64,000 bases of DNA, from positions 62,001 to 126,000 of the forward strand of contig JAJVHY010000007.1 in the NCBI GenBank assembly GCA_022072455.1, given 5' to 3'. This stretch comes from Verrucomicrobiia bacterium (GTDB lineage Bacteria > Verrucomicrobiota > Verrucomicrobiia > Palsa-1439). Both the position numbers and the translations under genes were made by a program. The notes under the pieces are model-generated. The model had not been told where the DNA came from. It made no database searches and saw nothing but the letters and a program-made list of their open reading frames with translations. Position 1 is the first letter of the stretch. Every line of letters begins with the position of its first letter. Positions 27,723 to 63,212 of the stretch are shown in pieces.

Positions 27723-27781
27723 GTTGTAGCCGCAGCACACGCTGCGGGTGAATCCGCCGAAGCGCACGCTTCGGCTACAAC
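27723..27781. repeat. REP pair (REPIN-like) abutting the murD stop
   Basis: Two hairpins, CCGCAGC-acac-GCTGCGG and CCGAAGCG-cac-GCTTCGG, are flanked by the inverted ends GTTGTAGCC and GGCTACAAC. The GTAG foot on the right (27778-27775 on the minus strand) supplies the TAG stop codon of murD. Same family as 2033-2059 and 47967-48024. Confidence 0.8.
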
Positions 27782-29130
27782 AGCGTTAGTACAGCTTCCT
27801 TGAATTTGTCCCCGCGGTCCTCATAGTTCGCAAACATGTCAAAGCTGGCGCATGCCGGTGACAACAACACGGTGTCCCCCCGGCCCGCTTGCGCGGTTGC
27901 CACGCGAACGGCTTCCGCCATTGTCGCGGCGCGTTCGCACGGCGTCACGTCACTCCATGCGGTCACCATTTTGTCGCGTGCTTCGCCGATGAGCACGGCC
28001 ACTTTGACTTTTTCCGCAATCACCTCCTTGATGCTGGAGAAGTTCAGTCCCTTGTCCCGGCCGCCGGCAATCAAGACCACCCGGCCTGGCAACGCCCGCA
28101 ACGCCTTCTCCACTGCGTCCACGTTCGTCGCCTTCGAATCGTTGATAAATGTCACCCCGTCCTTCACCGCGACTACTTCGCCGCGGTGCGGTTGCGGGCA
28201 GTACGAACAAATCGCCTCGCGCATCGCAGCGACCGGCAACTTCATCGCCAGTCCCGCCGCGAACGCCGCCAAAATGTTCTCCGCGTTGTGCAACCCGCGC
28301 AGGTTCGTCTCGTCCATCTTCATCAAAATGCCGTTGCACTCCGGCAACCGGCACCAAATCGTCTGGCCATCCGTCCAATCCACGCGCAAGTCCGCCTCCT
28401 GCCCGTACGCGCTGACGGTGATCACCCGCGATTTCGGCCGGCAACCCACCTTGTTCATCCAGGCCAAGACCGACGTACTCACGATGGCGTAATCCTGCGA
28501 CGTCTGATTCTCGAAAATGCGCGCCTTCGCTTTCGCGTAGGCTTCCATTGAACCGTGCCGGTCAATGTGGTCCGGCGTCAGGTTCAACCAAATCGCCACG
28601 TCCGGGCGGAACTGCTCGATACGCTCCAATTGGAACGAACTCGTCTCCAACACCACCGCATCCAACCCCGCGCTCTGCTCCACCGCCGCAGCGAATGCGT
28701 TTCCGATGTTACCGGCGGTGGCGGTCCGCTTGCCGGCGGATTCGAGCATCGCGTGGATCAACTCCGTCGTCGTCGTCTTCCCGTTCGTGCCGGTAATCGC
28801 GACGATCGGGCACAGGCAATACCGGTAGGCGAACTCCAACTCGCTCAAAACCGGCGTCCGCTGCCGCACCAACTCCGTCACGAGCGGGCGCTCGGGCGCA
28901 ATGCCGGGACTCAACACCGCCAAATCAAAATGCGCCGCCACGTCAAACCGGTTGCCCAGCTCGACGCGCACCCCGAGCTGCCGCAGCCGGTTGGCGCGTT
29001 CCACCAATTCCTCGGTATCCCCTTCGTCACGCACCACGACGCGCGCGCCGTCCCGTTGCAGCAATTCCGCGGCGGCCATCCCGCTCCGGCCCAGCCCCAA
29101 CACCACGACATCCTTGTCTTTGAGTTCCAT
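27775..29130 (-). CDS. murD: UDP-MurNAc-L-Ala--D-glutamate ligase MurD
   Basis: Adds D-Glu to UDP-MurNAc-L-Ala. 451 residues from MELKDKDVVVLGLGRSG. Motifs: ITGTNGKTTTTELIHAML (P-loop), NLTPDHIDRHGSMEAYA and the C-terminal INDSKATNVDAVEKAL. It starts two bases after the mraY stop. The stop codon TAG lies in the foot of a REP-like element, so the native 3' end may have been altered by the insertion. Confidence 0.96.
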   Translation of the reverse strand: MELKDKDVVVLGLGRSGMAAAELLQRDGARVVVRDEGDTEELVERANRLRQLGVRVELGNRFDVAAHFDLAVLSPGIAPERPLVTELVRQRTPVLSELEFAYRYCLCPIVAITGTNGKTTTTELIHAMLESAGKRTATAGNIGNAFAAAVEQSAGLDAVVLETSSFQLERIEQFRPDVAIWLNLTPDHIDRHGSMEAYAKAKARIFENQTSQDYAIVSTSVLAWMNKVGCRPKSRVITVSAYGQEADLRVDWTDGQTIWCRLPECNGILMKMDETNLRGLHNAENILAAFAAGLAMKLPVAAMREAICSYCPQPHRGEVVAVKDGVTFINDSKATNVDAVEKALRALPGRVVLIAGGRDKGLNFSSIKEVIAEKVKVAVLIGEARDKMVTAWSDVTPCERAATMAEAVRVATAQAGRGDTVLLSPACASFDMFANYEDRGDKFKEAVLTLL

Positions 29131-29132
29131 GG

Positions 29133-30239
29133 TTACCTTAGTTTGAGTGTTGCCAATCCCAACAACGCGAAAATGACCGACAAGATCCAAAACCGGGTCG
29201 TGATCTTGGTCTCGCTCCAGCCGAGTTCTTCAAAGTGATGATGAATCGGCGTGCGCTTGAAAATCCGGTAGCTCTTGCCGCGCAGCTTGCAGCCGGCCAC
29301 TTGAATCACCACCGACGCCGCCTCCATCACGAAAATGCCACCGACGATGATCAACACGAGTTCCTGTTTGATCATCAGCGCGATCGCCCCAATCAACCCG
29401 CCAATCGCCAGCGACCCGGTATCGCCCATGAACACCTCGGCCGGGTGACAGTTGAACCAGAGAAAACCGAGACTCGCGCCGATCAACGCCGCGCATACCA
29501 CCGTCAACTCCGCCGCGCCGGGCACAAAAGGAATCGTGAGATAGCTCGCGAGCTTCGCGTTACCGGCGACGAAGGTCATCACGGTGAACGCCAGCGCCGC
29601 CGTCAACGTGCAGCCAATCGCCAGGCCGTCCATGCCGTCGGTCAGATTCACAGCGTTGGACGCGCTCGTCAGGACGAACGCAAACCAGATGAGCATGAAA
29701 ATCCCCATGTCCAGAATCACCGGCAACTTCACGAACGGCAGATAAAATTGCCGGGCAATCTCGCCAACCGTCGGATGAAACCCGAGATACACCCCCAGCG
29801 CGATGCCGCACAACATCTGGGCCGCGAACTTTGTTTTGCTGCTGATGCCCTTCGAGTTGCGTTTTGTAACCTTCGCGAAGTCATCAAGGAAACCAACGAA
29901 GCCCAAGCACAACACCGTCGCGAGGCAGAGCAACACGAGCGGATTATCCGGTCGCGCCCATAAGATCGTCGCGTCAATCACCGCCCACAAAATCAACACG
30001 CCGCCCATCGTGGGCGTGCCGGTCTTATGCCCGTGTTTCTCCGCGAGCGGCCCGAGATCATCGGCCCCGCGAATCGGCTGGCCGAATTTCAACTCGGCCA
30101 ACTTCCGAATCATCCACGGCCCGGTCACGACACAAATCAGCATTGCCGTGATCGCGGCAAAAACCGCGCGGAACGTCGTGTACTGAAACACGCGCAACGG
30201 AGTGAAATACTCCGTCAACTGACTCAAATAAAACAGCAT
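29133..30239 (-). CDS. mraY: Phospho-N-acetylmuramoyl-pentapeptide transferase MraY
   Basis: Integral membrane enzyme that transfers phospho-MurNAc-pentapeptide to undecaprenyl phosphate, making lipid I. 368 residues, about ten membrane segments. Conserved motifs: RGADDLG and GTPTMGGVLI near the N-terminus, GFLDDFAKV (Asp pair), NLTDGMDGLAIG, FMGDTGSLAIGG and the C-terminal PIHHHFEELGW. Typical length and fully syntenic between murF and murD. Confidence 0.97.
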   Translation of the reverse strand: MLFYLSQLTEYFTPLRVFQYTTFRAVFAAITAMLICVVTGPWMIRKLAELKFGQPIRGADDLGPLAEKHGHKTGTPTMGGVLILWAVIDATILWARPDNPLVLLCLATVLCLGFVGFLDDFAKVTKRNSKGISSKTKFAAQMLCGIALGVYLGFHPTVGEIARQFYLPFVKLPVILDMGIFMLIWFAFVLTSASNAVNLTDGMDGLAIGCTLTAALAFTVMTFVAGNAKLASYLTIPFVPGAAELTVVCAALIGASLGFLWFNCHPAEVFMGDTGSLAIGGLIGAIALMIKQELVLIIVGGIFVMEAASVVIQVAGCKLRGKSYRIFKRTPIHHHFEELGWSETKITTRFWILSVIFALLGLATLKLR

Positions 30240-30268
30240 CTCCTTGTTTCCTGCTTACCGCTCCCCAA

Positions 30269-31660
30269 CTACTTCAGTTCAAACGCCGCCAAAACTTTTT
30301 CCAACTGCATACCCCGCGAACCCTTCAACAACACAAAATCCCCGTCGCGCAACAACCAGCGCAACAAATCCGCCGCCTGCTGCGCGTCACTGACCGGTAA
30401 CACGCGATGCGATTCCATTCCGCGGCTGACCGCGCCATCCGCGATCCAGCGCGCGTTCGGGCCAACCGTGACCAGCAACGCCAACTGACTCTGCGCTGCC
30501 AGCGCGCCAATTTCCAAATGCGCCGGGCGGGAGTGTTCGCCGAGTTCGAGCATGTCGCCGAGCACCGCGATCTTGCGCCCCTTACCGGGCGTCTCGCGAA
30601 TCATCCGCAAGGCGGCCGTCATCGAAACGACGTTGGCGTTGTAGCAATCGTTGACGAACCGGATGCCGGCGCGCGTGACTTCCTGCATCCGCATGCCGGG
30701 GAACTCCATCGTTTCGAGGCCTTCCCGGATTTCGTCGAGGTCCATGCCCTGCATGTAACCGACCGCTGCCGCTTGCAGCGCGTTGTAAATCTGATGCCGG
30801 CCGAGCGTGCGCAGCCGGATGTAAACGTCCTCGCGTTTCTTCGCGATGTTCAGCCGGAACTTCACGTCGCCGTTGATCTTGATCTCGCTGGCGCGGATGT
30901 CCGCAAAATTTTCGATGCCGACGCTGACCACGGCGGCGCGGGTGCGCGCGCGGAGTTCGGCGAACCATTTGTCATCCGCGTTCAACACCGCCAACCCCTC
31001 CCCATTCGCCGGCAACCCTTCGAGGAGCGCGCCTTTTTCTTTGGCCACACCGGCTTCGCCGCCGAGGAACTCGGCATGCGCCAGCCCGATGTTGGTGATG
31101 ACGCCGACTTCCGGTTTGCAGAAGCCGGTCAGTTGCGCGATCTCGCCGGGATGACTCGTGCCCAGCTCGAACACGCCGAAATCATATTCGGGATTGAGCT
31201 TCAGCAGATTCAACGGCAGGCCGATGTGGTTGTTCTTGTTGCCCTCGGTCTTGATGACGTTGAACCGCTGGCCGAGGACGGCCGCGATCATTTCTTTCGT
31301 CGTCGTTTTCCCGGACGAGCCGGTAATTCCGATGACGCGGGTAGTGGGGGGCATTAGCCGGCGGTAGTTCGTTGCGAGTTTGTGCAGCGCGGTGAGGGTG
31401 TTCTGGACTTGGAGAAGCGCAAGAACACTAGGCGAGTTGGCTGCACGGGTAGGATGGTGCGAGACTACCGCCGCGGATGCCCCCCGCTGCGCCGCGTCAT
31501 CCAAAAATTCATGACCGTCAAAATGTGGGCCCTGCAAGGCGATGAAACAATCGCCGCGTTCGAGCGCCCGCGTGTCGGTGCTCACTTGGCGCACCGGCTG
31601 GTCCGGGTTGCCCTGGATCAATTCCGCACCGCAAAGTTCGGCAAATTCAGCTAGGCGCAT
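30269..31660 (-). CDS. murF: UDP-MurNAc-tripeptide--D-Ala-D-Ala ligase MurF
   Basis: Adds D-Ala-D-Ala, the last cytoplasmic precursor step. 463 residues from MRLAEFAELCGAEL. Motifs: STDTRALERGDCFIAL, GITGSSGKTTTKEMIAAVL (P-loop), GTSHPGEIAQL, NIGLAHAEFLG and VNDCYNANVVSM. The ATG at 31660 has AGGTGG at the right distance; the GTG three codons earlier is rejected. It overlaps the end of murE by ten bases. Confidence 0.96.
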   Translation of the reverse strand: MRLAEFAELCGAELIQGNPDQPVRQVSTDTRALERGDCFIALQGPHFDGHEFLDDAAQRGASAAVVSHHPTRAANSPSVLALLQVQNTLTALHKLATNYRRLMPPTTRVIGITGSSGKTTTKEMIAAVLGQRFNVIKTEGNKNNHIGLPLNLLKLNPEYDFGVFELGTSHPGEIAQLTGFCKPEVGVITNIGLAHAEFLGGEAGVAKEKGALLEGLPANGEGLAVLNADDKWFAELRARTRAAVVSVGIENFADIRASEIKINGDVKFRLNIAKKREDVYIRLRTLGRHQIYNALQAAAVGYMQGMDLDEIREGLETMEFPGMRMQEVTRAGIRFVNDCYNANVVSMTAALRMIRETPGKGRKIAVLGDMLELGEHSRPAHLEIGALAAQSQLALLVTVGPNARWIADGAVSRGMESHRVLPVSDAQQAADLLRWLLRDGDFVLLKGSRGMQLEKVLAAFELK

Positions 31661-35248: not shown

Positions 35249-35261
35249 GCTTCAAATTTCC

Positions 35262-35293
35262 CCGGTGGCCGTTTCCTTGGTAACGGCCACCGG
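35262..35293 (-). promoter_or_regulatory. Perfect 12-bp hairpin in front of ftsL
   Basis: CCGGTGGCCGTT and AACGGCCACCGG form a perfect stem in the 63-base gap between rsmH and ftsL. Read on the coding strand the eight-base loop is ACCAAGGA, which holds an AAGGA Shine-Dalgarno-like core, though it is too far from the ATG to serve ftsL directly. There is no T-run. It may be an attenuator, a processing site or a repeat; the sequence does not decide. Confidence 0.55.
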
Positions 35294-35311
35294 CGGGGTT
35301 CCCCACCCCCA

Positions 35312-36241: not shown

Positions 36242-36325
36242 TCGGCAGGTGGAATCGGCAAGAAATTGCTCCCCACTTCTCCGCTCCACTGCAGCACAAC
36301 CTTCACAACCTGTCCGCTTGAAATT

Positions 36326-46068: not shown

Positions 46069-46320
46069 ATGAGCGATGGCAAACCCGCAGGCGCAGAGAA
46101 AAAAGTCGTGGCCGGGATTTTGGGAATTCTTCTGGGCGGTTTCGGAATTCACAAATTCTTCCTTGGCTACACCAAGGAAGGCATCATTCAACTCATCCTA
46201 ACCTTTGTCACTTGCGGCATTGGCAGCATCATCGGCCTGATCGAGGGCATCATTTACCTCACCAAGTCCGACGAAGAATTCGTCGCCACTTACATCACCG
46301 GCAAAAAAGGCTGGTTCTAA
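46069..46320 (+). CDS. TM2-domain membrane protein
   Basis: An 83-residue protein: a short charged N-terminus, two membrane helices joined by a tight turn (AGILGILLGGFGIHKFFLGY and IIQLILTFVTCGIGSIIGLI) and the tail YITGKKGWF. GGFGIHKFFLGY is the TM2 signature. The function is unknown. AAAGGAG precedes the ATG. The last 24 residues are nearly identical to those of the next gene, which looks like a tandem duplicate. Confidence 0.9.
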   Translation: MSDGKPAGAEKKVVAGILGILLGGFGIHKFFLGYTKEGIIQLILTFVTCGIGSIIGLIEGIIYLTKSDEEFVATYITGKKGWF

Positions 46321-46326: not shown

Positions 46327-46785
46327 ATGTACAAAATCATTGGCGCTGACGGTCGCGAATACGGCCCGGTCACCAGCGAGCAAGTCCGCCAGTGGGTCGC
46401 CGAAGGCCGAGCCAATGGCCAAACCCGTGTCCAAGCCGAAGGCACAACGGATTGGCAACCTCTGGCCGCGACGCCGGAGTTTGCCTCACTTTACAGCACA
46501 CCGCCCACCCTTACCCCGCCAACTGCCAGCCCCAAACCACTAAGCGCGGACAAGAAAATCGCCGCCGGCATTTGCGGCATCATCCTCGGCGGTTTTGGCG
46601 TGCACAAATTCATCCTCGGCTATGGTGGCGTCGGCTTGACGATGCTGTTGATCTCGATTCTGAGTTGCGGCCTTGCCGCGCCCATTATGCATATCATCGG
46701 CATCATCGAAGGCATCATCTACCTGACCAAGTCCGATGAAGATTTTGTAGCCACATACGTGACCGGGAAAAAAGGCTGGTTCTAA
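46327..46785 (+). CDS. GYF_2-TM2 domain membrane protein
   Basis: A 152-residue protein with an N-terminal GYF_2-type domain (MYKIIGADGREYGPVTSEQV, about 1-50, ending in a conserved WQPLA), a Pro/Thr-rich linker and a C-terminal TM2 module (GGFGVHKFILGYGGVGLTML) that closes with DEDFVATYVTGKKGWF. GYF_2 domains are predicted peptide-binding modules. It lies six bases after the shorter TM2 gene and shares its C-terminal end. Confidence 0.88.
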   Translation: MYKIIGADGREYGPVTSEQVRQWVAEGRANGQTRVQAEGTTDWQPLAATPEFASLYSTPPTLTPPTASPKPLSADKKIAAGICGIILGGFGVHKFILGYGGVGLTMLLISILSCGLAAPIMHIIGIIEGIIYLTKSDEDFVATYVTGKKGWF

Positions 46786-46812: not shown

Positions 46813-47970
46813 GTGACTCTGCAGCCCGGCCAACGCCTCGAAATCGAAATTGCCGATGTCGCCTTTGGCGGTGATGGCCTCGGTCGCGCTGACGGCTTTG
46901 TCATCTTCGTTCCTTTCGTCCTCACCGGCGAACGCGTTGAAGTCGAAATCGTCAGCGTCCACAAACGTTTCGCCAACGCCGACCTCGTCCGCGTCATCAC
47001 CCCTTCCCCGCATCGGGTGGAACCCCGCTGCCGGCTCTACACCCAGTGCGCCGGCTGCCAGTACCAACACGTCACCTACCGGCACCAGCTCGAACTCAAA
47101 CAAAAACAATTCCGCGACATCTTCCAACGCATCGGCAAGATGCCCGACCCGCCCATCGCACCGGTTGTCGGTTCGCCGCGCGAATACAATTACCGGAACA
47201 AACTCGTCGTCCACGGCCCCGGCGCGCCGGGCTTCTGGACGATGCGCGGCAAGTCCATCATCCCGGTCAACCACTGTCCGATCGCCCGGGAAGAGGTCAA
47301 CGCCAAGCTCGCCACCATCACCGACGCCGACAAACATACGACCATCCGCAGCAACAGTGCCGGCGAAGTCTGGAGTTTCGCCGAACCGCCCGTTGATCTC
47401 ATGATTAACGAAGTCATCCTCGGCAAGACTCTCCGCGCTCCCGTCGGCTCATTCTTCCAAGTGAACCGCGAAGTTATCGAACTTGCCCTCCAACACACCC
47501 GGCAAATCTTCCTCGACAGCGGCTGCAAAACTCTCGTGGACGCCTATTGCGGCATCGGTCTGTTCGCGCTCCTGCTCGGCGATCTTGCCGACCATATTTA
47601 CGGCATCGAATTCGACCCGAACGCGATCAAAGCCGCCAACGAAAACGCCGCCCGGCTCGGACTGCAGAACTACGATTTCTACCCCGGCAAGACCGAACGG
47701 CTGCTGTTCTACACGCTCCGGATGTGCCAGATGGACAACACCTGCCTGATCCTCGACCCACCGCGCTCCGGCTGCGCCGCCCCGGTGCTCAAGACCTTGC
47801 GCGAATACCGGCCGAAGAAGTTAATCTACATCTCCTGCGCCCCGCCGATGTTGGCGCGCGACGTGAAGCTCCTCAGCAACCAAGGCTACCGGCTCGAACG
47901 CATCACGCCGTTCGACATGTTCCCGCAAACCGCCCACTGCGAAGCCGTCGCCGAATTGGTGCGGAAGTAG
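46813..47970 (+). CDS. TrmA/RlmD-family RNA uracil-C5 methyltransferase
   Basis: S-adenosylmethionine-dependent RNA methyltransferase of the 23S U1939/U747 or tRNA m5U54 group; the exact target is not clear. An N-terminal TRAM domain (LEIEIADVAFGGDGLGR) is followed by iron-sulfur cysteines (CRLYTQCAGC and CPIA), the SAM site LVDAYCGIGLFALLLG and the catalytic-cysteine motif YISCAPPMLARD. Asn of the usual SCNP is Ala here. The active-site LILDPPRSGC is intact. 385 residues; GTG start. The stop codon TAG is inside the GTAG foot of a REP-like element. Confidence 0.88.
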   Translation: MTLQPGQRLEIEIADVAFGGDGLGRADGFVIFVPFVLTGERVEVEIVSVHKRFANADLVRVITPSPHRVEPRCRLYTQCAGCQYQHVTYRHQLELKQKQFRDIFQRIGKMPDPPIAPVVGSPREYNYRNKLVVHGPGAPGFWTMRGKSIIPVNHCPIAREEVNAKLATITDADKHTTIRSNSAGEVWSFAEPPVDLMINEVILGKTLRAPVGSFFQVNREVIELALQHTRQIFLDSGCKTLVDAYCGIGLFALLLGDLADHIYGIEFDPNAIKAANENAARLGLQNYDFYPGKTERLLFYTLRMCQMDNTCLILDPPRSGCAAPVLKTLREYRPKKLIYISCAPPMLARDVKLLSNQGYRLERITPFDMFPQTAHCEAVAELVRK

Positions 47971-48024
47971 CCGCACCCTTTACGGGTGCGTTGTGACCCC
48001 ACGCAGGCTGAAGCCTGCGGCTAC
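47967..48024. repeat. REP pair (REPIN-like) overlapping a stop codon
   Basis: Ends GTAGCCGCA and TGCGGCTAC are inverted repeats. Inside are two hairpins, CGCACCC-tttac-GGGTGCG and CGCAGGCT-ga-AGCCTGCG. The left GTAG (47967-47970) contains the TAG stop of the methyltransferase gene. The second hairpin is the reversed copy of the element at 2033-2059. Confidence 0.82.
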
Positions 48025-48066
48025 AAGATTGTTTGTCATACCGGAGATTGCTAGCATCTCGACCGC

Positions 48067-53922: not shown

Positions 53923-54708
53923 TCAAGGCTTCGCCACCCGCTCCAGCTCCTCCGCCCGCACCCAACCCTGTTGCTCATCAGCGCGTTCGACAAAAACCCA
54001 CTGCCCGCGGTCCTCCCGAATCGCCACTTTCGTCCCCTCGCCCAACTGAAAATGCACCGTCGCATCCGCCAACGGCGCAAACCGCGCCTCCACCTTCGGC
54101 ACCACCACCACCGCCACTGGCCGCGCCGCATTCCGGTAAATCACCATCGCCGTCGCCGTCACCAAGCCGATCCCGGCCATGACCGCCAAAATCACCAACC
54201 CGCTTCGCCACCGGGGCCGCCACACCGCGGCCGCAATCAACAACATCGTTGCCCACACTCCGATGATCTCATACCGAGTCCACTGCGCCGTCGTCCGCGC
54301 GCCGGCCAGCGACCGAAAAAAACGGACGACCAGCTTCGGCGACACATTCACCTCCGCCACGCCGAGCTTTTCTTCGGCGAACTTCAGATTCGCGAGAATA
54401 TCGGGATCACCAGGTGCAATCAGCCGGGCTCGTTCGTAATTGAGCACCGCCCGCCCCACCTGTCCCGCCCGGTAATGCGCGTTGCCGAGATTAAAAAATA
54501 CATGCGCCGTCTTTGGCTCGATTTTCTCGTAAGCCGCCACCGCCTCCGCAAACTTGCCGGCATCAAACAGCGCGTTCGCCGCCTTGAAGTCGTCGGCGAC
54601 CGCCATGGCCGCGATCAAGTAGGGTGCGCTATTGCGCACCAGCCGCGCCCAGCCGCACAAAATGCGGTGCGCAATAGCGCACCCTACTGGCTTACTTTTC
54701 CAATTCAT
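53923..54708 (-). CDS. batE: BatE-like TPR and SH3-type membrane protein with a REPIN-encoded insert
   Basis: Last gene of the bat operon. A TPR region (about 40-110; AANALFDAGKFAEAVAAYEK, FFNLGNAHYRAGQVGRAVLN) is followed by two membrane helices (IIGVWATMLLIAAAV and LVILAVMAGIGLVTATAMVI) and a C-terminal SH3-like domain (VAIREDRGQWVFVE, GWVRAEELERV). Residues about 8-30 are the translation of a 69-base palindromic element; without it the N-terminus would read MNWKSKP-LIAAMAVADDF, a short signal-like sequence. ATG at 54708 overlaps batD by 17 bases; an alternative start is the ATG at 54606 (MAVADDF). 261 residues as called. Confidence 0.82.
   Translation of the reverse strand: MNWKSKPVGCAIAHRILCGWARLVRNSAPYLIAAMAVADDFKAANALFDAGKFAEAVAAYEKIEPKTAHVFFNLGNAHYRAGQVGRAVLNYERARLIAPGDPDILANLKFAEEKLGVAEVNVSPKLVVRFFRSLAGARTTAQWTRYEIIGVWATMLLIAAAVWRPRWRSGLVILAVMAGIGLVTATAMVIYRNAARPVAVVVVPKVEARFAPLADATVHFQLGEGTKVAIREDRGQWVFVERADEQQGWVRAEELERVAKP
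54619..54687. repeat. REP pair (REPIN-like) inside batE
   Basis: GTAG-GGTGCGC-tatt-GCGCACC at the left and GGTGCGC-aata-GCGCACC-CTAC at the right are inverted copies, 69 bases in all (exactly 23 codons). It lies in frame within the 5' end of batE. The hairpin differs in sequence from the CGCAGGCT family but has the same GTAG feet and two-hairpin layout. Confidence 0.85.
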
Positions 54709-56335
54709 CAATCACCTGTTCCAATTGTTGCTTCAATCCGTTCACATCCGCCCGCGCCCCGGCAAACCGCGCCGCGTCGCATACCTCAAAAATCTCCCGC
54801 ACCTTCCCCGGCAACCGGTGCTCCTCCACCACCGATGCCGTCATCCCCGCCGCCGGCAAGTTCAACCGGTCGCCCAAATACTCCTGCAACACCCGTTGCA
54901 CCTGCTCCGGCGTCGTCGCCCCGGCCAGAATCTGCCGCGCATTCCGCGCCGCCCGGCTGCGCCGCGCGTACGCCACATCGCCGGTCAAGCGTTCCTGCCG
55001 GCGTTTCCACGCAATCGCCCCGGCCAGTGCCAGAACCGGGACCACGTTCCATGGCCAAATCGGCGGCGGCACACTCGCGACCGGCCCGCGATCACCCTTC
55101 AAATACACGATGTCCTGCCCCAGTTTCTCCGCTGGCCGTACCCGCTCACTGCCGGTCAACACCGCCGCCTGCCCGCCGGGCTTGATCTTCAACTCAATTG
55201 GCGCCTGGCCGGTCGTCTTGTACGTCTTCGCGACCGGATCAAAATACGACAACCGCACATCCGGTAACTGCGTCGCCTTCGTGTCTTTCGCGACCAACAC
55301 CTGCTGAAACACCCGTTCACCGGTCGTGCCCAACTCATTCTTTGTCGTCTTCGATGTTGGGTCATACGTCTTGAAATTCTCCAATCCCTTCAACTGAATC
55401 GCCGGCACCGTGTCGATGTTGCCATTCCCGGCAATCCGCACCGTCACTGTGATCGGATCTCCCACCGCCACCTCCACCGGTTTTGCGTCCACGCTCAAAC
55501 TCCATTCGCCCACCGCCCCGGCAAAATCCGCCGGCCGCCCCTCCGCCGGCAACGGCAAGACTTCAATCGGCACGACATCCAAGGTGACCGGCACTTCGCG
55601 CACTTCGATGCGTCCCATCATCTCATCGAAAATCGACCGGTTTCGCACCTGCGTCGCCAACTGCACCTTGAGCACGCATGGGCCGAACTTGAGTTCACCG
55701 GCGCGCGTCGGCGAAATCGCGCCTTCAACCACATAGACATTGAACGCCTCACCATTGATCGACTGCGTCCCCTGTTTCACGTTACCGCTGTACTTGTACC
55801 CGAGCCCTTCCGCTTCCGAGTTAAAACTGCTCAACCCGCGCACCGGCAAATTCGCCCGCGCAAACACGATCACATCCAACGGCGCGGTCTGCCCGAGGTA
55901 AACCTGCTGCGAATTCAGCCGCACCTTCGCAAACAAACTTTGCGACATATCGGTTTGCGCGCCCGGTTTATCAACGGTCAACCTGATGGGGTTGGTCTTA
56001 AAGATTTTCCCGGCCACATTCACATCCAGTGCCGGTATCATAAACTCACCCGTTCGCGTCGGCGTGACCTGATACACCAAGCTCACTGATTGACTCATCG
56101 CCCCGTTGACGATGGACACGCTGGTGTTCACCGCCGGCCCCGCGAAGTTCAAACCCTCAATCTTCGGAATCGCCGGTTGCCCGCCGCTCTGGGTGCCGTT
56201 GATGCTGATGGTCAGCGAGATGGACTCGCCAAAACTCACCCGCGCCTGATCCACCGTAGCCGACACCGATACCTCCGCGAACACTTGCGGCGTCAGCAAG
56301 ACCAACGCAATGACCCAGAAAAATCTCACGCTCAC
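54692..56335 (-). CDS. batD: BatD, aerotolerance-operon membrane protein
   Basis: A 547-residue protein with a signal peptide (FFWVIALVLLTPQVFA), four or so beta-sandwich domains (DQARVSFGESISLTISING, AKVRLNSQQVYLGQTAPLDV, KPVEVAVGDPITVTVRIAG) and a membrane segment near residue 410 (WPWNVVPVLALAGAIAW) before a cytoplasmic helical tail. This is the BatD layout. Bat proteins are linked to stress resistance in Bacteroides and Leptospira, but their mechanism is unknown. GTG at 56335 follows AAGGA and overlaps the BatC-like stop by GTGA. Confidence 0.88.
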   Translation of the reverse strand: MSVRFFWVIALVLLTPQVFAEVSVSATVDQARVSFGESISLTISINGTQSGGQPAIPKIEGLNFAGPAVNTSVSIVNGAMSQSVSLVYQVTPTRTGEFMIPALDVNVAGKIFKTNPIRLTVDKPGAQTDMSQSLFAKVRLNSQQVYLGQTAPLDVIVFARANLPVRGLSSFNSEAEGLGYKYSGNVKQGTQSINGEAFNVYVVEGAISPTRAGELKFGPCVLKVQLATQVRNRSIFDEMMGRIEVREVPVTLDVVPIEVLPLPAEGRPADFAGAVGEWSLSVDAKPVEVAVGDPITVTVRIAGNGNIDTVPAIQLKGLENFKTYDPTSKTTKNELGTTGERVFQQVLVAKDTKATQLPDVRLSYFDPVAKTYKTTGQAPIELKIKPGGQAAVLTGSERVRPAEKLGQDIVYLKGDRGPVASVPPPIWPWNVVPVLALAGAIAWKRRQERLTGDVAYARRSRAARNARQILAGATTPEQVQRVLQEYLGDRLNLPAAGMTASVVEEHRLPGKVREIFEVCDAARFAGARADVNGLKQQLEQVIDELEK

Positions 56336-57060
56336 CAATCCTTGACCGGTTGCCCGGCCTCTTTCAAGTCCTTCATCTGCAACTCCGGGAAAAAATTCCA
56401 ATTTTTCTCCTCCTCCCGGAGTTGATCAAGCAATGCCGCCGCCTGTTGTTTATCGAGATTTTCCGCGGGTTTCGGCTCGGTCTGTGCCGGTTGCTCCTGC
56501 GGTTTTTGTTCTTGCGACGAATCGGGTTTTTGTTGCTGTTGCTGTTGCTCGTCCGGCTTTTGCTGATCCTGTTTGTCCTGATCTTTTTTGTCCTGGTCCT
56601 TCTGATCGCCTTTGTCCTGCTTCTGCTGCTGTTGTTCCTGCTGCTGTTTTTTCAGCTCCTCAATTTTCTTCTTCACCAAATCCCGATTGAATTTTGCATC
56701 TTCGTCTTGGGCATTCAACGCCAACGCCCCCTCATACTCCTTCAAGGACTTCTCATACACCGGCAACGCCTGCTCGATCCCCTGCTTCTCCGCCGCCTGC
56801 CCCAGCCGGTAATGCGTGTTCCCGAGATTGTACCGCGAGCGAACTTGCAGTTCCCTTTCCGGCGACGCCAACGCCCGCTCAAACGCCGCCACCGCCTTTG
56901 CTAAATCATTACTCCGGTAGGCCGTCACCCCCTCATTATAGACGCGCGGCCAACTCTCTGCCGCTCTGACCGAAGTTGAACCACAGAGACACAGAGCGCA
57001 CAGAGCCACCAGCACTCCGGTCGTTCTCCTCTCTGCGTTCTTTGTGTCTCTGTGGTTCAT
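56332..57060 (-). CDS. batC: BatC-like TPR protein with a repeat-encoded signal peptide
   Basis: A 242-residue protein. Residues 1-33 (MNHRDTKNAERR then VLVALCALCLCGS) are a signal peptide translated from a palindromic repeat, with a possible lipobox-like LCLCG. TPR repeats follow (about 35-125; YNEGVTAYRSNDLAKAVAAF, YNLGNTHYRLG). Residues about 135-205 are an extreme Gln/Lys/Asp-rich, charged low-complexity tract. The C-terminus has LLDQLREEEKNWNFFPEL. The ATG is inside the repeat and overlaps the batB stop (ATGA). Upstream frame extension lies in batB. Confidence 0.82.
   Translation of the reverse strand: MNHRDTKNAERRTTGVLVALCALCLCGSTSVRAAESWPRVYNEGVTAYRSNDLAKAVAAFERALASPERELQVRSRYNLGNTHYRLGQAAEKQGIEQALPVYEKSLKEYEGALALNAQDEDAKFNRDLVKKKIEELKKQQQEQQQQKQDKGDQKDQDKKDQDKQDQQKPDEQQQQQQKPDSSQEQKPQEQPAQTEPKPAENLDKQQAAALLDQLREEEKNWNFFPELQMKDLKEAGQPVKDW
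56977..57059. repeat. Palindromic repeat of the TGAACCACAGAG family at the batB/batC junction
   Basis: TGAACCACAGAGACACA (56977-56993) and its exact complement TGTGTCTCTGTGGTTCA (57043-57059) bound an 83-base element. It carries the batB stop codon, the batC start codon and the codons of the batC signal peptide. A single half-unit of the same family is at 63192. Confidence 0.85.
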
Positions 57061-58058
57061 ATCCGTTTCCGATCCGACACAAACATCTCCACCACCAGCA
57101 ACAACAACCCAATCCCCAACGGCCATTGGAACCGCTCAAAAAGTTTCTTCTGCAACTGCTCCTCGTATTCCTTCCGTTGCAACTGCGCGATTCCCTTCTC
57201 GTACACCGTCTCCATCCCAAAATCTCCGGCCGCACTCCGCACATAAATCCCCTCCGTCTGCAACGCCAACTGCTGCAGCGTCCCCTCATCCAACCGCGAC
57301 TTCACCACCTTGCCTTCGCCGTCCTTCAAAAACTCCATCCCCTTGCCATCCTCCCGCACCGGAATCAACTCCCCCTCCACCGACCCCACGCCAATTGCAT
57401 AAATCCGCACCCCGGCCTTCTTCGCCTCGGCTGCCGCGGCGATGGCATCGCCCTCCGTCTCCTCCCCGTCGGTAATCAACACAATCGCCCGGTCGCGCCC
57501 CTCGCCCGCCTCGAACGCCTTCAACGCCGTCCGAATCGCCGCCCCAATCGCCGACCCGCCGCGTGGAATGATCCGCGGCTCCGCATCTCGCAACGCCAGC
57601 CGGCACGCCTCATAATCAATCGTCAAGGGACACTGCACAAACGCCGTCCCGGCAAACGCCACCAACCCAATCCGGTCGCCCGCCAACTTCGCCATCAAGT
57701 CCGCCACCGCAAATTTCGCCTGCGTCAGCCGGTTCGGTCGCACGTCCTCGGTCAACATGCTCTTCGACACATCCAGCAACACGAACACATCCACGCCCTT
57801 CCGTTTCACCTGTCGCCACTCAAACCCCCACCGCGGCTGCGCCAATGCCAGCAACGCAAACACAATCCCCGCCACCAACAAAACCGCCTTCCACCGCCGC
57901 GCTACCGGCCGCACCGACCGGGTCAATCGCTCCGCCAACGGCGGCGCCACAAACCGTTCCAACGCCCGCCGCCGCGCGCGAAACGCCCACACCAGCAGCA
58001 GCACCACTACCGGTACCACCGCCAGCCACCAGAACATTTGTGGATTCCCGAATTGCAT
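57057..58058 (-). CDS. batB: BatB, von Willebrand factor A membrane protein
   Basis: A 333-residue protein: two N-terminal membrane spans (FWWLAVVPVVVLLLVWAF and AVLLVAGIVFALLALAQP), a VWA domain with the MIDAS motif DVSKS (LLDVSKSM, about residue 95), Thr in TAFVQCPLT and DGEE in LITDGEETEGD, and a C-terminal span (PLGIGLLLLVVEMFV). This is the BatB arrangement. ATG at 58058 overlaps the batA stop by one base. Its own stop codon TGA is the first three bases of a TGAACCACAG repeat. Confidence 0.9.
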   Translation of the reverse strand: MQFGNPQMFWWLAVVPVVVLLLVWAFRARRRALERFVAPPLAERLTRSVRPVARRWKAVLLVAGIVFALLALAQPRWGFEWRQVKRKGVDVFVLLDVSKSMLTEDVRPNRLTQAKFAVADLMAKLAGDRIGLVAFAGTAFVQCPLTIDYEACRLALRDAEPRIIPRGGSAIGAAIRTALKAFEAGEGRDRAIVLITDGEETEGDAIAAAAEAKKAGVRIYAIGVGSVEGELIPVREDGKGMEFLKDGEGKVVKSRLDEGTLQQLALQTEGIYVRSAAGDFGMETVYEKGIAQLQRKEYEEQLQKKLFERFQWPLGIGLLLLVVEMFVSDRKRI

Positions 58059-59050
58059 CACGGCACCCTCCGCAATCGCGTGTTCTCCAACGCCACCGCG
58101 AGCAGCAAGCATCCCAACCCCGGCATCAGAAACCACGAGAAAAGCTCCGTCCACTCCTCGTACTTCACCGTCTCGATTTCGTGCTTCTCCAGCTTATCAA
58201 TCTGCTCATACGTCTGCTTCAACGTCGCCGTGTCCGCCGCCCGGAAATACTGACCGCCCGTCTGCGCCGCAACATCCTTCAACAAGCCTTCATCCAAATC
58301 CGACATCGTGTACCCGATCAACTGCCGTTGCGCATTCAACACCGGCACTCTTCCCCCGATATTCGACCCCGCGCCAATCGTGTACACCCGCACCCCAAAT
58401 TCCTTTGCCGCCTTTGCGGCCTCGCGCGCCGGTGGCTTTGGTACATTCTCTCCACCATCCGTCAACAACACGATCACCTTGCTCTTCGCCTTCGAATCGC
58501 GCAGCCGGTTCACCCCCGTCCCCAGCCCCGCGCCGGTCGCCGTGTTTCCCTCCACCAAACCGATTTGCACCCGGTCCAGATTCCGGTCGAGCCAATCGTG
58601 ATCCAGCGTCAACGGACTCGCCACATACGCGTGCGTCCCGAACACCACCAACCCCACCCGGTCATTCGTCCGCGCCTTGATAAAATCGCGCACCACACTC
58701 TTCACCACATCGAGCCGGGTCGTCCGTTCCCCGCGCTCCTCATAATCCGCCGCCCCCATGCTGCCGGAAACATCCACCACCAATACAATATCCACGCCTT
58801 CCGTTTTCACCTTCGACTCACTTCGCCCGATCTGCGGCCGCGCCAACGCCACGATCAAAGCCGCCACCGCCAACCCGCGCAGCAACAACAACAACGTCGG
58901 CCCCACTCGCGCCCAAACCGAACCCGCCCCCTGCGCCGGCAACACCGATGAAAACTGCACCCCACCATCGCGTTTCGATCGGAATTGCCGCCACATCCAG
59001 ACCGGCAAGAGCAGGAGCAACAACAGCAGCAGTGGATCGTGAAACTTCAT
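58058..59050 (-). CDS. batA: BatA, von Willebrand factor A membrane protein
   Basis: A 330-residue protein: two N-terminal spans (LLLLLLLLLPVWMW and LLLLLRGLAVAALIVALA), a VWA domain with MIDAS DVSGS (VVDVSGSM, about residue 92), TLDHDW and LLTDGGEN, and a C-terminal span (FLMPGLGCLLLAVAL). It is paired with BatB, as in other bat operons, and follows the DUF4381-type gene with a four-base overlap. Confidence 0.92.
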   Translation of the reverse strand: MKFHDPLLLLLLLLLPVWMWRQFRSKRDGGVQFSSVLPAQGAGSVWARVGPTLLLLLRGLAVAALIVALARPQIGRSESKVKTEGVDIVLVVDVSGSMGAADYEERGERTTRLDVVKSVVRDFIKARTNDRVGLVVFGTHAYVASPLTLDHDWLDRNLDRVQIGLVEGNTATGAGLGTGVNRLRDSKAKSKVIVLLTDGGENVPKPPAREAAKAAKEFGVRVYTIGAGSNIGGRVPVLNAQRQLIGYTMSDLDEGLLKDVAAQTGGQYFRAADTATLKQTYEQIDKLEKHEIETVKYEEWTELFSWFLMPGLGCLLLAVALENTRLRRVP

Positions 59051-59520
59051 CGCGCCGACTCCCGCACAAATTTCTCCGCCGCTCCCAACGCCCGGTCCAT
59101 GTCCTCTGTGCCGGGCCGATGCCGGGCAAACTTCACCAAATCCGCCTCCTGCAAAAACGCCCCCAACAACTCCATGCTCGCCGCCGGCAACTTCGCCTCG
59201 CTCAAAAATTCCTCCGTCGTCCGCTCCGGTGCCCGCAGCCCAAACTGTCCCTCAATGAATTGCCGGACGATGTCCGCCACCCGCGTATAAAACTCCTCCA
59301 CCGGCAAGTTCTCCCGTCGCAACCGCTCCAGCGCCGCCAAAGCGATTACATAAGGCGTCGGTAGTGGAACGGGCGTCTCGCCTATTACCGCCGCCTTTTT
59401 CCGGCTAATCGCCCACACAATGAGACCGATGGCCACCACCACAAACGCCAGCAGCGCCCAAACCCACCACGGGTAAGGCACATCCACCAACCCCTTAATG
59501 TCACGAATATCGCTCTCCAT
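59047..59520 (-). CDS. DUF4381-type membrane protein, first gene of the bat operon
   Basis: A 157-residue protein with one membrane span (WWVWALLAFVVVAIGLIVWA, about 19-38) and a helical cytoplasmic part (ALAALERLRRENLPVEEFYT, VADIVRQFIEGQFGLRAPER, TTEEFL). That pattern matches the small DUF4381 proteins located between the DUF58 and batA genes in other genomes. Here the ATG at 59520 is taken; the frame is open to 59598 with no better start. MoxR and DUF58 genes, usual upstream partners, are absent; metH is divergent instead. Confidence 0.8.
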   Translation of the reverse strand: MESDIRDIKGLVDVPYPWWVWALLAFVVVAIGLIVWAISRKKAAVIGETPVPLPTPYVIALAALERLRRENLPVEEFYTRVADIVRQFIEGQFGLRAPERTTEEFLSEAKLPAASMELLGAFLQEADLVKFARHRPGTEDMDRALGAAEKFVRESAR

Positions 59521-59627
59521 CGGGAATATCTGACCATAACCAGCCCCCCACCGTTGAGTCCAGTATCCAGTCAGCGGCACCCTTGCCCAACCCGGCAACC
59601 ACTGCTATTGTCCCCGCCGGCAACCCC

Positions 59628-62600
59628 ATGAGCAACGCACGCACCCAATTACTTTCTGACGCCCTGAATCAACGCATCCTCGTCCTCGACGGCGCGATGG
59701 GCACGATGATCCAGCAACGCGACCTCACCGCCGCCGATTTCGGCGGCCCCGCGCTCGAAGGCTGCAACGAAAACCTCGTCCTCACCCGCCCCGACGTCAT
59801 CCGCGACATCCACCGGCAATACTATGCTGCCGGCGCGCACATCGTGGAAACGAACACCTTCGGCGCCACCCCGCTCGTGCTCGCCGAATACGGTCTTCAG
59901 GACAAATGCCGGGAAATCAACATCGCCGCCGCCAAACTCGCCCGCGAAGCCGCCGTCGAGTTCAACGGCTTCGTAGCCGGCTCGATGGGGCCGACCACCA
60001 AAGCCATCACGGTTACCGGCGGCGTCACTTTCCAGCAGTTGATCGAAAATTTCCACGCCCAAGCCAAAGCCCTGACCGAAGGCGGTGCCGACATCCTGCT
60101 CCTCGAAACCGCGCAAGACATGCGCAACGTCAAAGCCGCGCTCATCGGCATTGAGCAGGCTTTCACCGAACTCGGAACGAAATTGCCGGTCATGGTCTCC
60201 GGTACGATTGAACCGATGGGCACCATGCTCGCCGGTCAGGCTGCCGACGCACTTGTCGCGTCGCTACAACACGTGGATTTGCTCTCGGTCGGACTCAACT
60301 GCGCTACCGGCCCCGAGTTCATGACCGATCACATCCGCACCATTCACCAAATGGCGAACACGCTCGTCTCGTGCTATCCAAATGCCGGCCTGCCCGACGA
60401 GGACGGCAAATATGGCGAGACTCCGACTTCCCTCGCTTCCTCCCTCGAACGATTCGTCAAGAACGGCTGGCTCAACATCATCGGCGGCTGCTGCGGCACC
60501 ACCCCGGCCCACATCAAAGCCATCGCCGAGATGGTCGCCGGCAAAGAACCGCGCCGGCATCGCGGCCAACGGAAGTCTTGGTATACCGGCATCGAACTCG
60601 TCGAAGCGGCCGACGATAACCGTCCACTCATCGTCGGTGAACGCACCAACGAAGTCGGCTCGCGCGCGTTTAAGCGTCTGATCACCGAGGAGAAATTTGA
60701 GGAAGCCACCGAGATCGCCCGCGCCCAAGTCAAAAGCGGTGCGCACATCATTGACATCAACCTCGAAAACACCGACCGGGATGAGTTGCTCGATATTGAC
60801 CGGTTCTACGAAAAGGTCATCCACAAGGTCAAAGTCCCGTTGATGATTGACTCGACCAACCCCAAGTCAATCGAGCGCGCCCTCACGTATTGCCAAGGCA
60901 AGAGCATCATCAACTCGATCAACTTCGAGGACGGCGAAGAAAAGTTTAACCACGTCCTCCCACTCGTGAAAAAGTACGGCGCGGCGGTCATCATCGGTTC
61001 GATTGACGAAGACAAGCTCCAAGCCCAAGCCATCACCCGGGAACGCAAACTCGCCATCGCCGAACGCGCCCACCGGTATTGCACCGAGCGCGGCATCGCG
61101 GAGGAAGACCTGATCTTCGATCCGCTCGTCTTCCCGTGCGCGACCGGCGATGAGAACTACATCGGCAGCGCCGTCGAAACCATCGAAGGCGTCCGCCTCA
61201 TTAAAGAAAAACTGCCGCGCTGCAAAACCGTCCTCGGCGTCAGCAACGTCAGCTTCGGCCTCCCGCCCGCCGCGCGCGAAGTCATCAACTCCGTTTTCCT
61301 CTACTATTGCACGAAAGCCGGCCTCGATCTGGCCATCGTCAACGCCGAGAAGCTCGAACGCTACGCCAGCATCCCGGAAAAAGAAAAACGTCTTGCCGAA
61401 GATTTACTCTTCAACTATCCGCCCGACGGCTACAACGCGCCGCGCGATTACCGGCAACAAACCATTCAGCACCGCCACGAGATCAACCAACTCCACATCG
61501 CCGCTATCAACGACCATTTCCGTGGCGCGGAAAGTCGCGTCAAAAAGAAGATCTCCGACCTCCCCCTCGATCAGCGTCTGGCAAATTACATCCTCGAAGG
61601 TACCAAAGAAGGCCTGATCTTGGACCTCGAACTCAAACTTAAAACCGGTACCGCCCCGCTCGACATCATCAATGGCCCGCTCATGGACGGCATGAAAGAA
61701 GTCGGCCGGCTCTTCAACGCCAACGAACTCATCGTCGCCGAAGTCCTTCAGTCGGCCGAAGCGATGAAAGCCGCCGTCGCGTTCCTCGAACAATTCATGG
61801 AACGCAAAGCTGATTCCACCAAAGGCAAAGTCCTTCTCGCCACCGTCAAAGGCGACGTCCACGACATCGGCAAAAACCTCGTCGAAATCATTCTCTCGAA
61901 CAACGGCTTCCACGTCATCAATCTCGGCATCAAAGTCCCGCCCGAGGATTTGATCAAAGCTTACCGGGAACACAAACCCGACGCCATCGGCCTGTCTGGC
62001 CTCTTGGTGAAAAGCGCCCAACAAATGGTCATCACCGCCGGCGACCTCAAGACCGCCGGCATCACCGTCCCGATGCTCGTCGGTGGCGCGGCGCTCAGCG
62101 ACAAATTCACCCGCAACCGGATCGCCCCGAGCTACGACCAAGTCGTCATCTACTGCAAAGACGCCATGACCGGCCTCGCGATGATGAACAACCTGATGGA
62201 CCCGGCCCAACGCGTGAAAGTCATCGCCGATCACCAACCGGTCGCAGTCGCGGCTGCCCTCGAGAAAGAAGAAGAGTTTGCGGAGACAACCCAACGCAGT
62301 TCCCGCGTCCGCCTACTCCCGCCGTTACCGGTACCCTATCCCGACCGGAAAGTTCGCGACGTTCCGCAACTCCGTGAGATCTGGGAATACATCAACCCGC
62401 AGATGCTTTACGTCCGGCATCTCGGTTTCAAAACCAACTTCGAGAAAGCGCTCGCCGCCCGCGACCCGAAGGCGCTGGAGCTTTACAACCTCGTCGAAGA
62501 CGTCAAAGCCGAAGCCGCGAAGTTCATGAAGGTGAAAGCGGTCTGGCAATTCTTTGACGCTGTTGCTGAAGGCAACAGCCTCAAGCTGTTCTCGCCGACT

Positions 62601-63194
62601 CTCCCGCTCGCCGATTCGCCCCTTCACATTTTCAACTTCCACCGGCAACGCAAACCCGACGGTCTCTGCCTGGCGGATTATGTCATGCCGCCGATTTCCC
62701 GTGGGAGCGGCATTCCTGCCGCGACTGGTCGTGACAAGAATGTCACTCCCACAGACATTGAAGTTCAACGCGACAGCATCGCGCTCTTCGTCGTCGGCGC
62801 CGGCACCGGCATCCGGCAACGCTCCGAGGAATACAAAGCGAAAGGCGAATACCTCAAATCGCACGCCCTCCAAGCGCTCGCCATCGAGACCGCCGAAGCC
62901 TGCGCCGAATGGCTGCACCGCCGCATCCGGGAAGACTGGGGTTTCCCCGACCCCGCCGACATGACGATGCTCAACCGGTTCACGACCAAATACCGGGGCC
63001 GCCGCTACAGCTTCGGTTACCCCGCCTGTCCCGCACTCGAAGACCAAGCCGGTATCTGGAAACTTCTCCGCCCCGAAGAAATCGGCGTCGAGCTTACCGA
63101 AGGATTTATGATGGAACCGGAAGCTTCCGTAAGCGCCTTGGTCTTTCACCATCCGGACTGCACGTACTTTGGAGTTGGGGAAATTACGGAATGA
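59628..63194 (+). CDS. metH: Cobalamin-dependent methionine synthase with a REPIN-encoded insert
   Basis: Transfers a methyl group from methyltetrahydrofolate to homocysteine through methylcobalamin. 1188 residues in four modules: homocysteine-binding (DGAMGTMIQ; zinc cysteine pair GGCCGT about residues 286-291), pterin-binding (NERTNEVGSRAF), cobalamin-binding (His745 in DVHDIGKN, SGLLVKS) and the C-terminal activation domain (about 900-1188). Residues about 1024-1042 are encoded by a 52-base palindromic element lying in frame between CLADYVMPP and DIEVQRDS. ATG at 59628 is chosen over the TTG at 59583. The stop TGA is the first three bases of a TGAACCACAG repeat. Confidence 0.94.
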   Translation: MSNARTQLLSDALNQRILVLDGAMGTMIQQRDLTAADFGGPALEGCNENLVLTRPDVIRDIHRQYYAAGAHIVETNTFGATPLVLAEYGLQDKCREINIAAAKLAREAAVEFNGFVAGSMGPTTKAITVTGGVTFQQLIENFHAQAKALTEGGADILLLETAQDMRNVKAALIGIEQAFTELGTKLPVMVSGTIEPMGTMLAGQAADALVASLQHVDLLSVGLNCATGPEFMTDHIRTIHQMANTLVSCYPNAGLPDEDGKYGETPTSLASSLERFVKNGWLNIIGGCCGTTPAHIKAIAEMVAGKEPRRHRGQRKSWYTGIELVEAADDNRPLIVGERTNEVGSRAFKRLITEEKFEEATEIARAQVKSGAHIIDINLENTDRDELLDIDRFYEKVIHKVKVPLMIDSTNPKSIERALTYCQGKSIINSINFEDGEEKFNHVLPLVKKYGAAVIIGSIDEDKLQAQAITRERKLAIAERAHRYCTERGIAEEDLIFDPLVFPCATGDENYIGSAVETIEGVRLIKEKLPRCKTVLGVSNVSFGLPPAAREVINSVFLYYCTKAGLDLAIVNAEKLERYASIPEKEKRLAEDLLFNYPPDGYNAPRDYRQQTIQHRHEINQLHIAAINDHFRGAESRVKKKISDLPLDQRLANYILEGTKEGLILDLELKLKTGTAPLDIINGPLMDGMKEVGRLFNANELIVAEVLQSAEAMKAAVAFLEQFMERKADSTKGKVLLATVKGDVHDIGKNLVEIILSNNGFHVINLGIKVPPEDLIKAYREHKPDAIGLSGLLVKSAQQMVITAGDLKTAGITVPMLVGGAALSDKFTRNRIAPSYDQVVIYCKDAMTGLAMMNNLMDPAQRVKVIADHQPVAVAAALEKEEEFAETTQRSSRVRLLPPLPVPYPDRKVRDVPQLREIWEYINPQMLYVRHLGFKTNFEKALAARDPKALELYNLVEDVKAEAAKFMKVKAVWQFFDAVAEGNSLKLFSPTLPLADSPLHIFNFHRQRKPDGLCLADYVMPPISRGSGIPAATGRDKNVTPTDIEVQRDSIALFVVGAGTGIRQRSEEYKAKGEYLKSHALQALAIETAEACAEWLHRRIREDWGFPDPADMTMLNRFTTKYRGRRYSFGYPACPALEDQAGIWKLLRPEEIGVELTEGFMMEPEASVSALVFHHPDCTYFGVGEITE
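62701..62752. repeat. REPIN-like element inside metH
   Basis: Ends GTGGGAG and CTCCCAC are inverted; inside are GCGGCA-ttcc-TGCCGC and GTGACA-agaa-TGTCAC. GTGGGAGCGG...GCCGCGA closely resembles the REP consensus described in Pseudomonas. It is read through as about 17 codons of metH without a stop. Confidence 0.82.
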
Positions 63195-63212
63195 ACCACA
63201 GAGGCACAGAGA
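63192..63212. repeat. Half-unit of the TGAACCACAGAG repeat at the metH stop
   Basis: TGAACCACAGAGGCACAGAG begins at the metH stop codon (TGA, 63192-63194). It matches one arm of the batB/batC element at 56977-57059. No inverted partner is seen in the 58 bases before the Mrr gene. Confidence 0.75.

Follow-up and report, generated by a model that had tools for sequence, protein, structure and literature searches.

Nucleases of the PD-(D/E)XK superfamily known from mobile DNA include TnsA of Tn7, the Rpn proteins and homing nucleases. Insertion sequences and miniature inverted-repeat transposable elements (MITEs) are recognized by an enzyme gene lying between matched inverted ends, by short pairs that lack the gene and, in some genomes, by many copies. 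Repetitive extragenic palindromic sequences (REPs) and their doublets (REPINs), as described in the accessible parts of PMC3733652 and PMC2817692, have a GTAG foot and a hairpin stem, form inverted pairs, lie after genes and provide TAG stops for open reading frames (ORFs). The accessible part of PMC3733652 places REPs mainly downstream of coding regions, states that GTAG termini often give a TAG stop to flanking ORFs and mentions heterodimer REP pairs, and that of PMC12306157 counts E. coli REPs near stop codons. Here we analyzed a stretch of 64,000 nucleotides from a Verrucomicrobiia bacterium (contig JAJVHY010000007.1, positions 62,001 to 126,000; hereafter the window), which belongs to a genome of 4.82 Mb in 36 contigs (G000). 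In the window murD, an RlmD-type RNA methyltransferase gene, batB and metH end inside the feet of short repeats of two kinds, GTAG-foot pairs and arms of the repeat AACCACAGAG, called AACCAC arms after their foot. The AACCAC arms are probably the ends or leftovers of a unit of about 450 bp, in which a gene for a GxxExxY protein lies between matched inverted repeats.

The unit has the features of insertion sequences and MITEs listed above, but it holds no known transposase (PF13366 GxxExxY only) and no target duplication was seen. With the PD-(D/E)XK nucleases of mobile DNA it shares the nuclease superfamily and the conserved D...ExK of GxxExxY, and differs from them in that GxxExxY is a single small protein with matched repeats of its own. 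The GTAG pairs agree with REPs and REPINs in foot, stem, inverted pairing, position after genes and supply of TAG to ORFs, but the main GTAGCCGCA pair joins two unlike arms, and four of the five Y1_Tnp loci of G000 have no GTAG hairpin in the flanks fetched. The Rickettsia palindromic elements in ORFs, named in the accessible part of PMC3733652, are a further likeness, since a palindromic repeat adds protein codons as one appears to do at the start of batC; here there is one such predicted case, at a gene start. No description of the AACCAC-GxxExxY unit was found in the open literature searched (subscription papers and preprints lay outside the search), the letters of the repeat gave no match there, pieces of 9-10 letters gave no bacterial repeat paper among the titles listed, GxxExxY was mentioned in two papers, each time in passing, and PF13366/TIGR04256 appeared in one.

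GxxExxY genes between matched inverted repeats

An iterative profile search over about 1.8 Mb of fetched loci gave seven GxxExxY matches, all within the 1.1 Mb of AACCAC loci; two of the seven represent one gene, present in loci that overlap. The other 0.69 Mb yielded no match. Each of the seven sits between inverted copies of the repeat. By profile match the family is PF13366 / TIGR04256, a PD-(D/E)XK nuclease family. The likely start of the gene is the ATG of ATGAACCAC in loci L337 and L297 and a TTG at the same place in L361; the L337 gene is internally shortened.

Since loci found through the repeat are biased towards it, 30 loci were fetched by protein family alone, through a PF13366 search of 194 sampled genomes of Verrucomicrobiota, 104 of which had the family, with up to 12 matches each. 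Matched inverted ends scoring at least 13 were present in 24 of these 30 loci and in none of 60 random placements, where the maximum was 11. With 20 more loci and the six found through the repeat, 53 unique proteins were available. Matched ends flanked 38 of the 53 genes in a narrow window compared to 11 of 212 mispaired flanks. In a wider window they flanked 45 of the 53, compared to 10 of 424 mispaired flanks, and none were seen in 105 shifted windows of the same loci; when the six biased loci were left out the count was 39 of 47. Of the 53 predicted nucleases, 52 retain the D, E and K expected at the active site.

The length of the unit was 402-549 bp in 43 of 45 cases and 256 and 585 bp in the other two, about 450 bp being typical. 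The arms were made up mostly of 2-3 tandem words of about 9 bp (CACAGAG, CACGGAG, CACGAAA, CGCCAAG, ACAGGAT and others), and the word was alike within a locus and unlike between loci. Several gaps were occupied in more than one genome. The gatA-gatB gap holds a GxxExxY unit in five genomes (L387, L388, L391, L400 and L420), with different words; their proteins share 43-65% identity and are spread over more than one clade in a tree without support values. The cysD-cysN site and the pyruvate dehydrogenase E1 beta-E2 site were each occupied in two. Sphingomonas parapaucimobilis has a GxxExxY gene in the gap between fabD and fabG; in S. paeninsulae, M. bullatum, R. indigoferae and Shinella this gap measures about 15-35 nt and contains no such gene. 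In G000 itself the unit has an araB-like gene on one side and an araD-like gene on the other, and the TGA that closes a frame of 481 codons or more stands at its foot. This unit is flanked by exact copies of AACCACGAAATGCACGAAA, of which two one-mismatch copies occur elsewhere.

Phages gave no GxxExxY match, and the 15 stretches of viral contigs that fitted the short peptide pattern contained no relative. GxxExxY was present in 8 of 72,556 plasmid records. A weak profile match to Cas4 (E 0.034) was obtained, and no solved relative of GxxExxY was found by sequence.

Copies without a gene were also found. In public loci, among the matches listed, 64 of 111 forward AACCAC arms had a facing partner within 700 nt, mostly at 50-280 nt, and six pairs stood back to back. 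At batB the 83-bp pair is of the facing kind, and the metH arm is single. In genome G405, 12 of the 23 matches of the CACGAAA word belonged to six gene-less facing pairs. Gene-less copies with the same ends in one genome were seen in G405 and, weakly, in G000 (CACGAAA), and in G026 (CACGGAG). Gene-less pairs and single arms such as those at batB and metH look like derivatives of GxxExxY units.

Stop codons at the repeat feet

The stop codons of murD, the RlmD-type gene, batB and metH, with coordinates read directly, all lie within repeat feet (4/4), as the first-pass annotation of the window had claimed, and the GTAG pairs and AACCAC arms are, as it also held, unrelated kinds of element. The AACCAC word is present beyond chance (three matches in the window with at most three mismatches, none in 100 shuffles). 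In the window two of the three AACCAC feet end a gene; five of the seven GTAG feet have a coding-like stop nearby, which is the TAG of the foot in two of the five.

The AACCAC repeat occurred in at least 117 stretches of the public genome collection, in many phyla; hosts among the matches listed, to which the AACCAC counts below also refer, include isolates of Magnetospirillum, Sorangium, Nostoc, Microcystis and Thiobacillus and one archaeal metagenome-assembled genome. TG or TT precedes 75 of 138 distinct copies. A long-frame stop lay between -120 and +90 at 76 of the 124 copies with enough sequence: 42 of these stops were at -30 to -1, 11 of them exactly at the foot (-2 or -1), and 9 were in the repeat or beyond. 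Random points had such a stop in 136 of 690 cases, with a flat spread and 12 of the 136 at -30 to -1, so that the clustering before the foot was strong (42/76 against 12/136; Fisher p 2e-13). The feet of G026 are AAACCAC, with no TGA, and 25 of its 45 copies had a long-frame stop at -120 to +90, more widely spread.

Stop counts limited to +90 or +110 omit frames that run further, and unlimited counts gave a weaker bias. When only stops up to +90 were counted, 11 of 20 frames ended at the AACCAC foot; without the limit, 11 of 30 frames of at least 200 codons that were open into the repeat did so (p 0.026 against an expectation of about 20% derived from the letters of the foot), and 12 of 43 frames of at least 120 codons (p 0.14 against about 20%).

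The GTAG repeats of the window show a foot followed by a hairpin, and inverted pairs with a short spacer. In the loci of G000, 36 GTAG feet with a hairpin were found, 22 of them with a coding-like stop at -120 to +110: this stop was the TAG of the foot in 6, shared one base with it in 1, lay at -30 to -3 in 11, further upstream in 3 and past the foot in 1. With no downstream limit, 6 of 8 coding-like frames open at the foot ended in its TAG (p about 0.02 against 1/3). In G010, 14 of 31 feet had a coding-like stop, which was the foot TAG in 2 (one of them probably not a REP), lay at -30 to -3 in 8, further upstream in 3 and past the foot in 1; two of four open frames ended at the foot TAG in the unlimited count, one of the two again probably not a REP. 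The ORF calls behind both the GTAG and the AACCAC stop counts were rough, long open frames being taken as genes and some of these being spurious, which lessens what the counts can contribute to our reading.

Copies of both kinds are concentrated at the ends of genes, and where a gene runs on into a foot its frame tends modestly to be the one that gives a stop. The suggestion of the first-pass annotation that insertion is tolerated mainly where the element supplies a stop has modest support in this frame bias (6/8 GTAG, 11/30 AACCAC), but most copies supply none. Precise insertion at stop codons as a general rule is not supported: the stop lies from a few to 30 nt earlier at 11 of 22 GTAG feet, and at -30 to -1 at 42 of 76 AACCAC copies, 11 of these exactly at the foot. 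For the AACCAC copies the comparison with random positions showed clustering after genes. For GTAG the supply of stops is not new, since GTAG repeats giving TAG to ORFs appear in the accessible part of PMC3733652.

The same annotation had called REPs with a GTAG foot substrates of REP-associated tyrosine transposases (RAYTs). G000 has five Y1_Tnp genes. The RAYT-type one in L014 has pairs of GTAGGGTGCGC, a repeat also present in the window, to its left and right, and the flanks fetched for the other four contain no GTAG hairpin. The GTAG pairs are probably ordinary RAYT-type REPs, and the GTAG half of the finding is known.

The same gene ends in relatives

The four gene ends were aligned with those of same-family relatives, and about 90-130 nt past each stop were inspected. 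For each gene at least one repeat-free relative stops at the same aligned codon, and the repeats therefore need not have made these gene ends. This is the observation that the first-pass annotation had named as evidence against its proposal, and it was made for murD in G009, for the methyltransferase gene (rlmD) in G004, for batB in six relatives and for metH in four.

The metH stop is at the same aligned codon in G001, G007, G008 (TAA) and G009 (TGA), with no repeat in any of them, and three codons later in G004 and G010. The family models show the activation domain of metH matching 262 of 273 profile positions, close to the end of the protein; truncation of metH by the repeat was considered and ruled out, because metH of the relatives ends at the same codon. 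For batB, a same-codon TGA that shares its bases with the start of the next gene (ATGA) is present in the repeat-free G002, G003, G004, G008, G009 and G010, and the frame continues into the next gene in G001 and several more distant relatives. The murD stop of G009 is a same-codon TGA with no repeat, and in G004 and G010 a TAG lies one codon earlier, also with no repeat. In G001, of the same genus as G000, murD has the same-codon TAG and a GTAG pair with identical feet and different stems. The stop of rlmD is at the same codon in G004 (TAA, no repeat), and elsewhere the end shifts by a few codons. Judged from these alignments, the lengths of the four proteins are not clearly set by the repeats.

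Three observations concern these gene ends in their own right. The presence of a GTAG pair at one and the same murD codon in two species of one genus may reflect stem turnover in place or repeated insertion. The 3' end of metH is partly duplicated about 0.7-1.1 kb downstream of metH in L252 (G010) and L254 (G008), and in G008 a nucleotidyltransferase-like ORF lies between the two copies. The RlmD-type gene has its 3' end duplicated about 2.3 kb downstream in L253 (G010; positions 1034-1307 and 3523-3654), with a second repeated piece beyond.

If batC starts at the ATG of the ATGA that ends batB, its first codons and apparent signal peptide would be encoded by the repeat (MNHRDTKNAERR...LCALCLCGSTSVRAA); batC of relatives has other signal-peptide-like starts. 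At batB the repeat thus apparently supplies the putative start and predicted signal peptide of the next gene. This predicted repeat-coded start is plain from the sequence and is kept as a single case. Repeat-coded signal peptides were rejected as a general rule: 39 of 215 reverse arms had an exiting ORF of at least 120 codons, and to judge by their peptides most of these ORFs seem to be in the wrong frame or antisense. Another gene of G000 (L001, about 1501-1520) appears to have a reverse AACCAC arm in frame within its hydrophobic N-terminus.

Origin of the stops and nature of the unit

The stop-codon pattern is real but modest and probably reflects, for the most part, where such elements are tolerated. 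A rule by which copies are kept mainly where the element provides the stop of a gene is improbable. The lean of 6 of 8 GTAG frames in G000 and 11 of 30 AACCAC frames of at least 200 codons towards the stop frame argues for it, but most copies give no stop (one was supplied at 6 of 22 GTAG feet in G000, 2 of 14 in G010 and 11 of 76 AACCAC copies), repeat-free relatives keep the same stop codon, and the 12 of 43 AACCAC frames of at least 120 codons are not above expectation (p 0.14). That the elements target the TAG or TGA sequence as their insertion site is very improbable: although the foot coincides with a same-codon stop at metH and batB, and TG or TT stands before 75 of 138 AACCAC copies, the T[G/T]A seems to belong to the terminal repeat, given that complementarity at positions 1-3 outside ACCAC was seen in 54-72% of 67 facing pairs, most stops lie elsewhere than at the foot, and no target duplication was seen. 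The four cases might be coincidences in one window, with nothing to explain but the presence of REPs in gaps. The window was chosen after viewing, the genome rates are below those of the window and the frame bias is modest; the strong clustering of stops before the AACCAC foot in other genomes (42/76 against 12/136) makes such a coincidence hardly likely.

The explanation that we favour, and judge probable, is that two unrelated kinds of small element occupy the short gaps after genes and that their end bases happen to spell stops. In the GTAG pairs the TAG is simply contained in the foot. The AACCAC arms would be the ends or leftovers of a unit consisting of inverted repeat, GxxExxY gene and matching inverted repeat, and in some units the TGA of the foot would be the last two bases of the likely GxxExxY start followed by A ([A/T]TG AAC CAC, read as M N H). 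Both kinds may settle at the sites of least harm just past stops, often between co-directional genes, and a copy landing slightly within the end of a gene would survive best with an in-frame foot stop or with the old stop kept. Such a tolerance filter would account for both the lean towards the stop frame and the copies within 30 nt past genes. GxxExxY may bind or cut its own ends and so move the unit and its gene-less copies; that the unit moves, with GxxExxY as its mover, is what we infer. The matched repeats around GxxExxY could instead form an RNA stem that protects or regulates the message, rather than being transposon ends. Pairing alone would preserve the left-right complementarity, and the units do lie among co-directional genes, but the genomes concerned also contain scattered single arms and gene-less pairs that carry the same word, and 2-3 tandem words of about 9 bp per arm are more than a stem requires, so that this explanation is unlikely. 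Extending the favoured explanation, GxxExxY and its matched repeats may constitute a very widespread, undescribed class of minimal mobile element, in which a single PD-(D/E)XK nuclease reads a tandem word of about 9 bp and moves itself and gene-less copies, with no target duplication, into gaps of conserved operons (gatA-gatB, cysD-cysN, araB-araD, fabD-fabG and pyruvate dehydrogenase E1 beta-E2), an ATGA foot in some lineages allowing translation off the preceding gene; we put this forward tentatively, as a serious possibility.

Several observations weigh against the unit or against its movement. Clear ends were lacking at 8 of the 53 GxxExxY genes and, by the same score, were present at 3 of the 8 plasmid-borne ones; a fourth plasmid case (Sphingomonas) has its right end inside the annotated gene. 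The arms have opposite orientation in L402, L407 and the plasmid locus L435, and in G026, which has the most AACCAC copies (L092-L126), nine pairs stand back to back and one is facing, unlike elsewhere. The sole PF13366 match of G000 has a word that differs from the batB and metH repeats. For an insertion sequence, it is unfavourable that the L070 protein matched PF13366 / TIGR04256 only and no known transposase, and the predicted structure of GxxExxY is of low confidence (mean predicted local distance difference test score 50.6). Related GxxExxY proteins carry related words (Mantel r 0.485, reached by 0 of 5000 permutations; 38 genes, narrow test), a correlation that could come from physical linkage alone. 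Occupancy of the gatA-gatB gap could mean a hot spot or long residence instead of movement. No excess of target-site duplications of 2-6 bp was found in the 67 facing pairs, the empty sites among the fetched loci were those at fabD-fabG only, from other species or genera, no recent jump was seen, and the GxxExxY proteins compared within one genome are 33-85% identical, which is no burst of identical copies. The placement of the 45 units was counted with no control set: an upstream co-directional long frame ends near 36 of them, in 32 at -44 to +2 of the left end, a downstream co-directional start is present at 39, in 33 within -35 to +34 of the right end, and 12 have a converging frame on the right. 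Finally, the metH stop of G004 is followed by the foot-like TGAACTACGGAG, which may be a decayed copy.

Stop codons in repeats are mostly known or inherited. Should GxxExxY be the enzyme to which these repeats belong, a large body of so far unexplained intergenic repeats would be accounted for, and the enzyme types able to drive a stand-alone element would come to include PD-(D/E)XK nucleases. The matched words also offer a natural means of studying DNA recognition by a small nuclease, since different protein clades have different words.

Features of the window

Table 1. Positions of the genes and repeats discussed (window coordinates).
Feature	Position	Strand	Remarks
Single GTAG arm	2034..2058	+	About 22 nt past the gene's own TAG; supplies no stop
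GTAG-foot inverted pair, REPIN-like, at murD end	27723..27781	.	Foot GTAG on - strand, 27778-27775
murD	27775..29190	-	TAG 27777-27775 within foot GTAG; family model TIGR01087
RlmD/RumA-type methyltransferase gene	46813..47970	+	TAG 47968-47970 within foot GTAG; TIGR00479
GTAG-foot pair of two unlike arms, types CCGCACCC + CCGCAGGC	47967..48026	.	Foot contains the TAG of the methyltransferase gene
GTAGGGTGCGC pair	54618..54688	.	3 nt beyond gene 54692..56401 (-), which has its own TAA; supplies no stop
batC-like TPR gene	56332..57060	-	Start assumed at ATG of ATGA; family model
Facing pair of AACCACAGAG arms, 83 bp	56977..57059	.	Resembles gene-less pairs of other genomes; outer end is the batB TGA
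batB-like VWA gene	57057..58154	-	TGA 57059-57057 overlaps ATG of next gene (ATGA); family models
metH	59583..63194	+	TGA 63192-63194 forms first bases of single arm TGAACCACAGAGGCACAGAG
Single AACCACAGAG arm, three tandem words CACAGAG G CACAGAG AT CGCAGAG	63192..63220	+	At metH end

Two further pairs of similar pieces of 63-93 nt were noted in the window, 46228-46320 with 46693-46785 and 9095-9157 with 9741-9803, the members being 86% and 90% alike, respectively. One of these pairs ends with a stop codon and the other opens with ATG.

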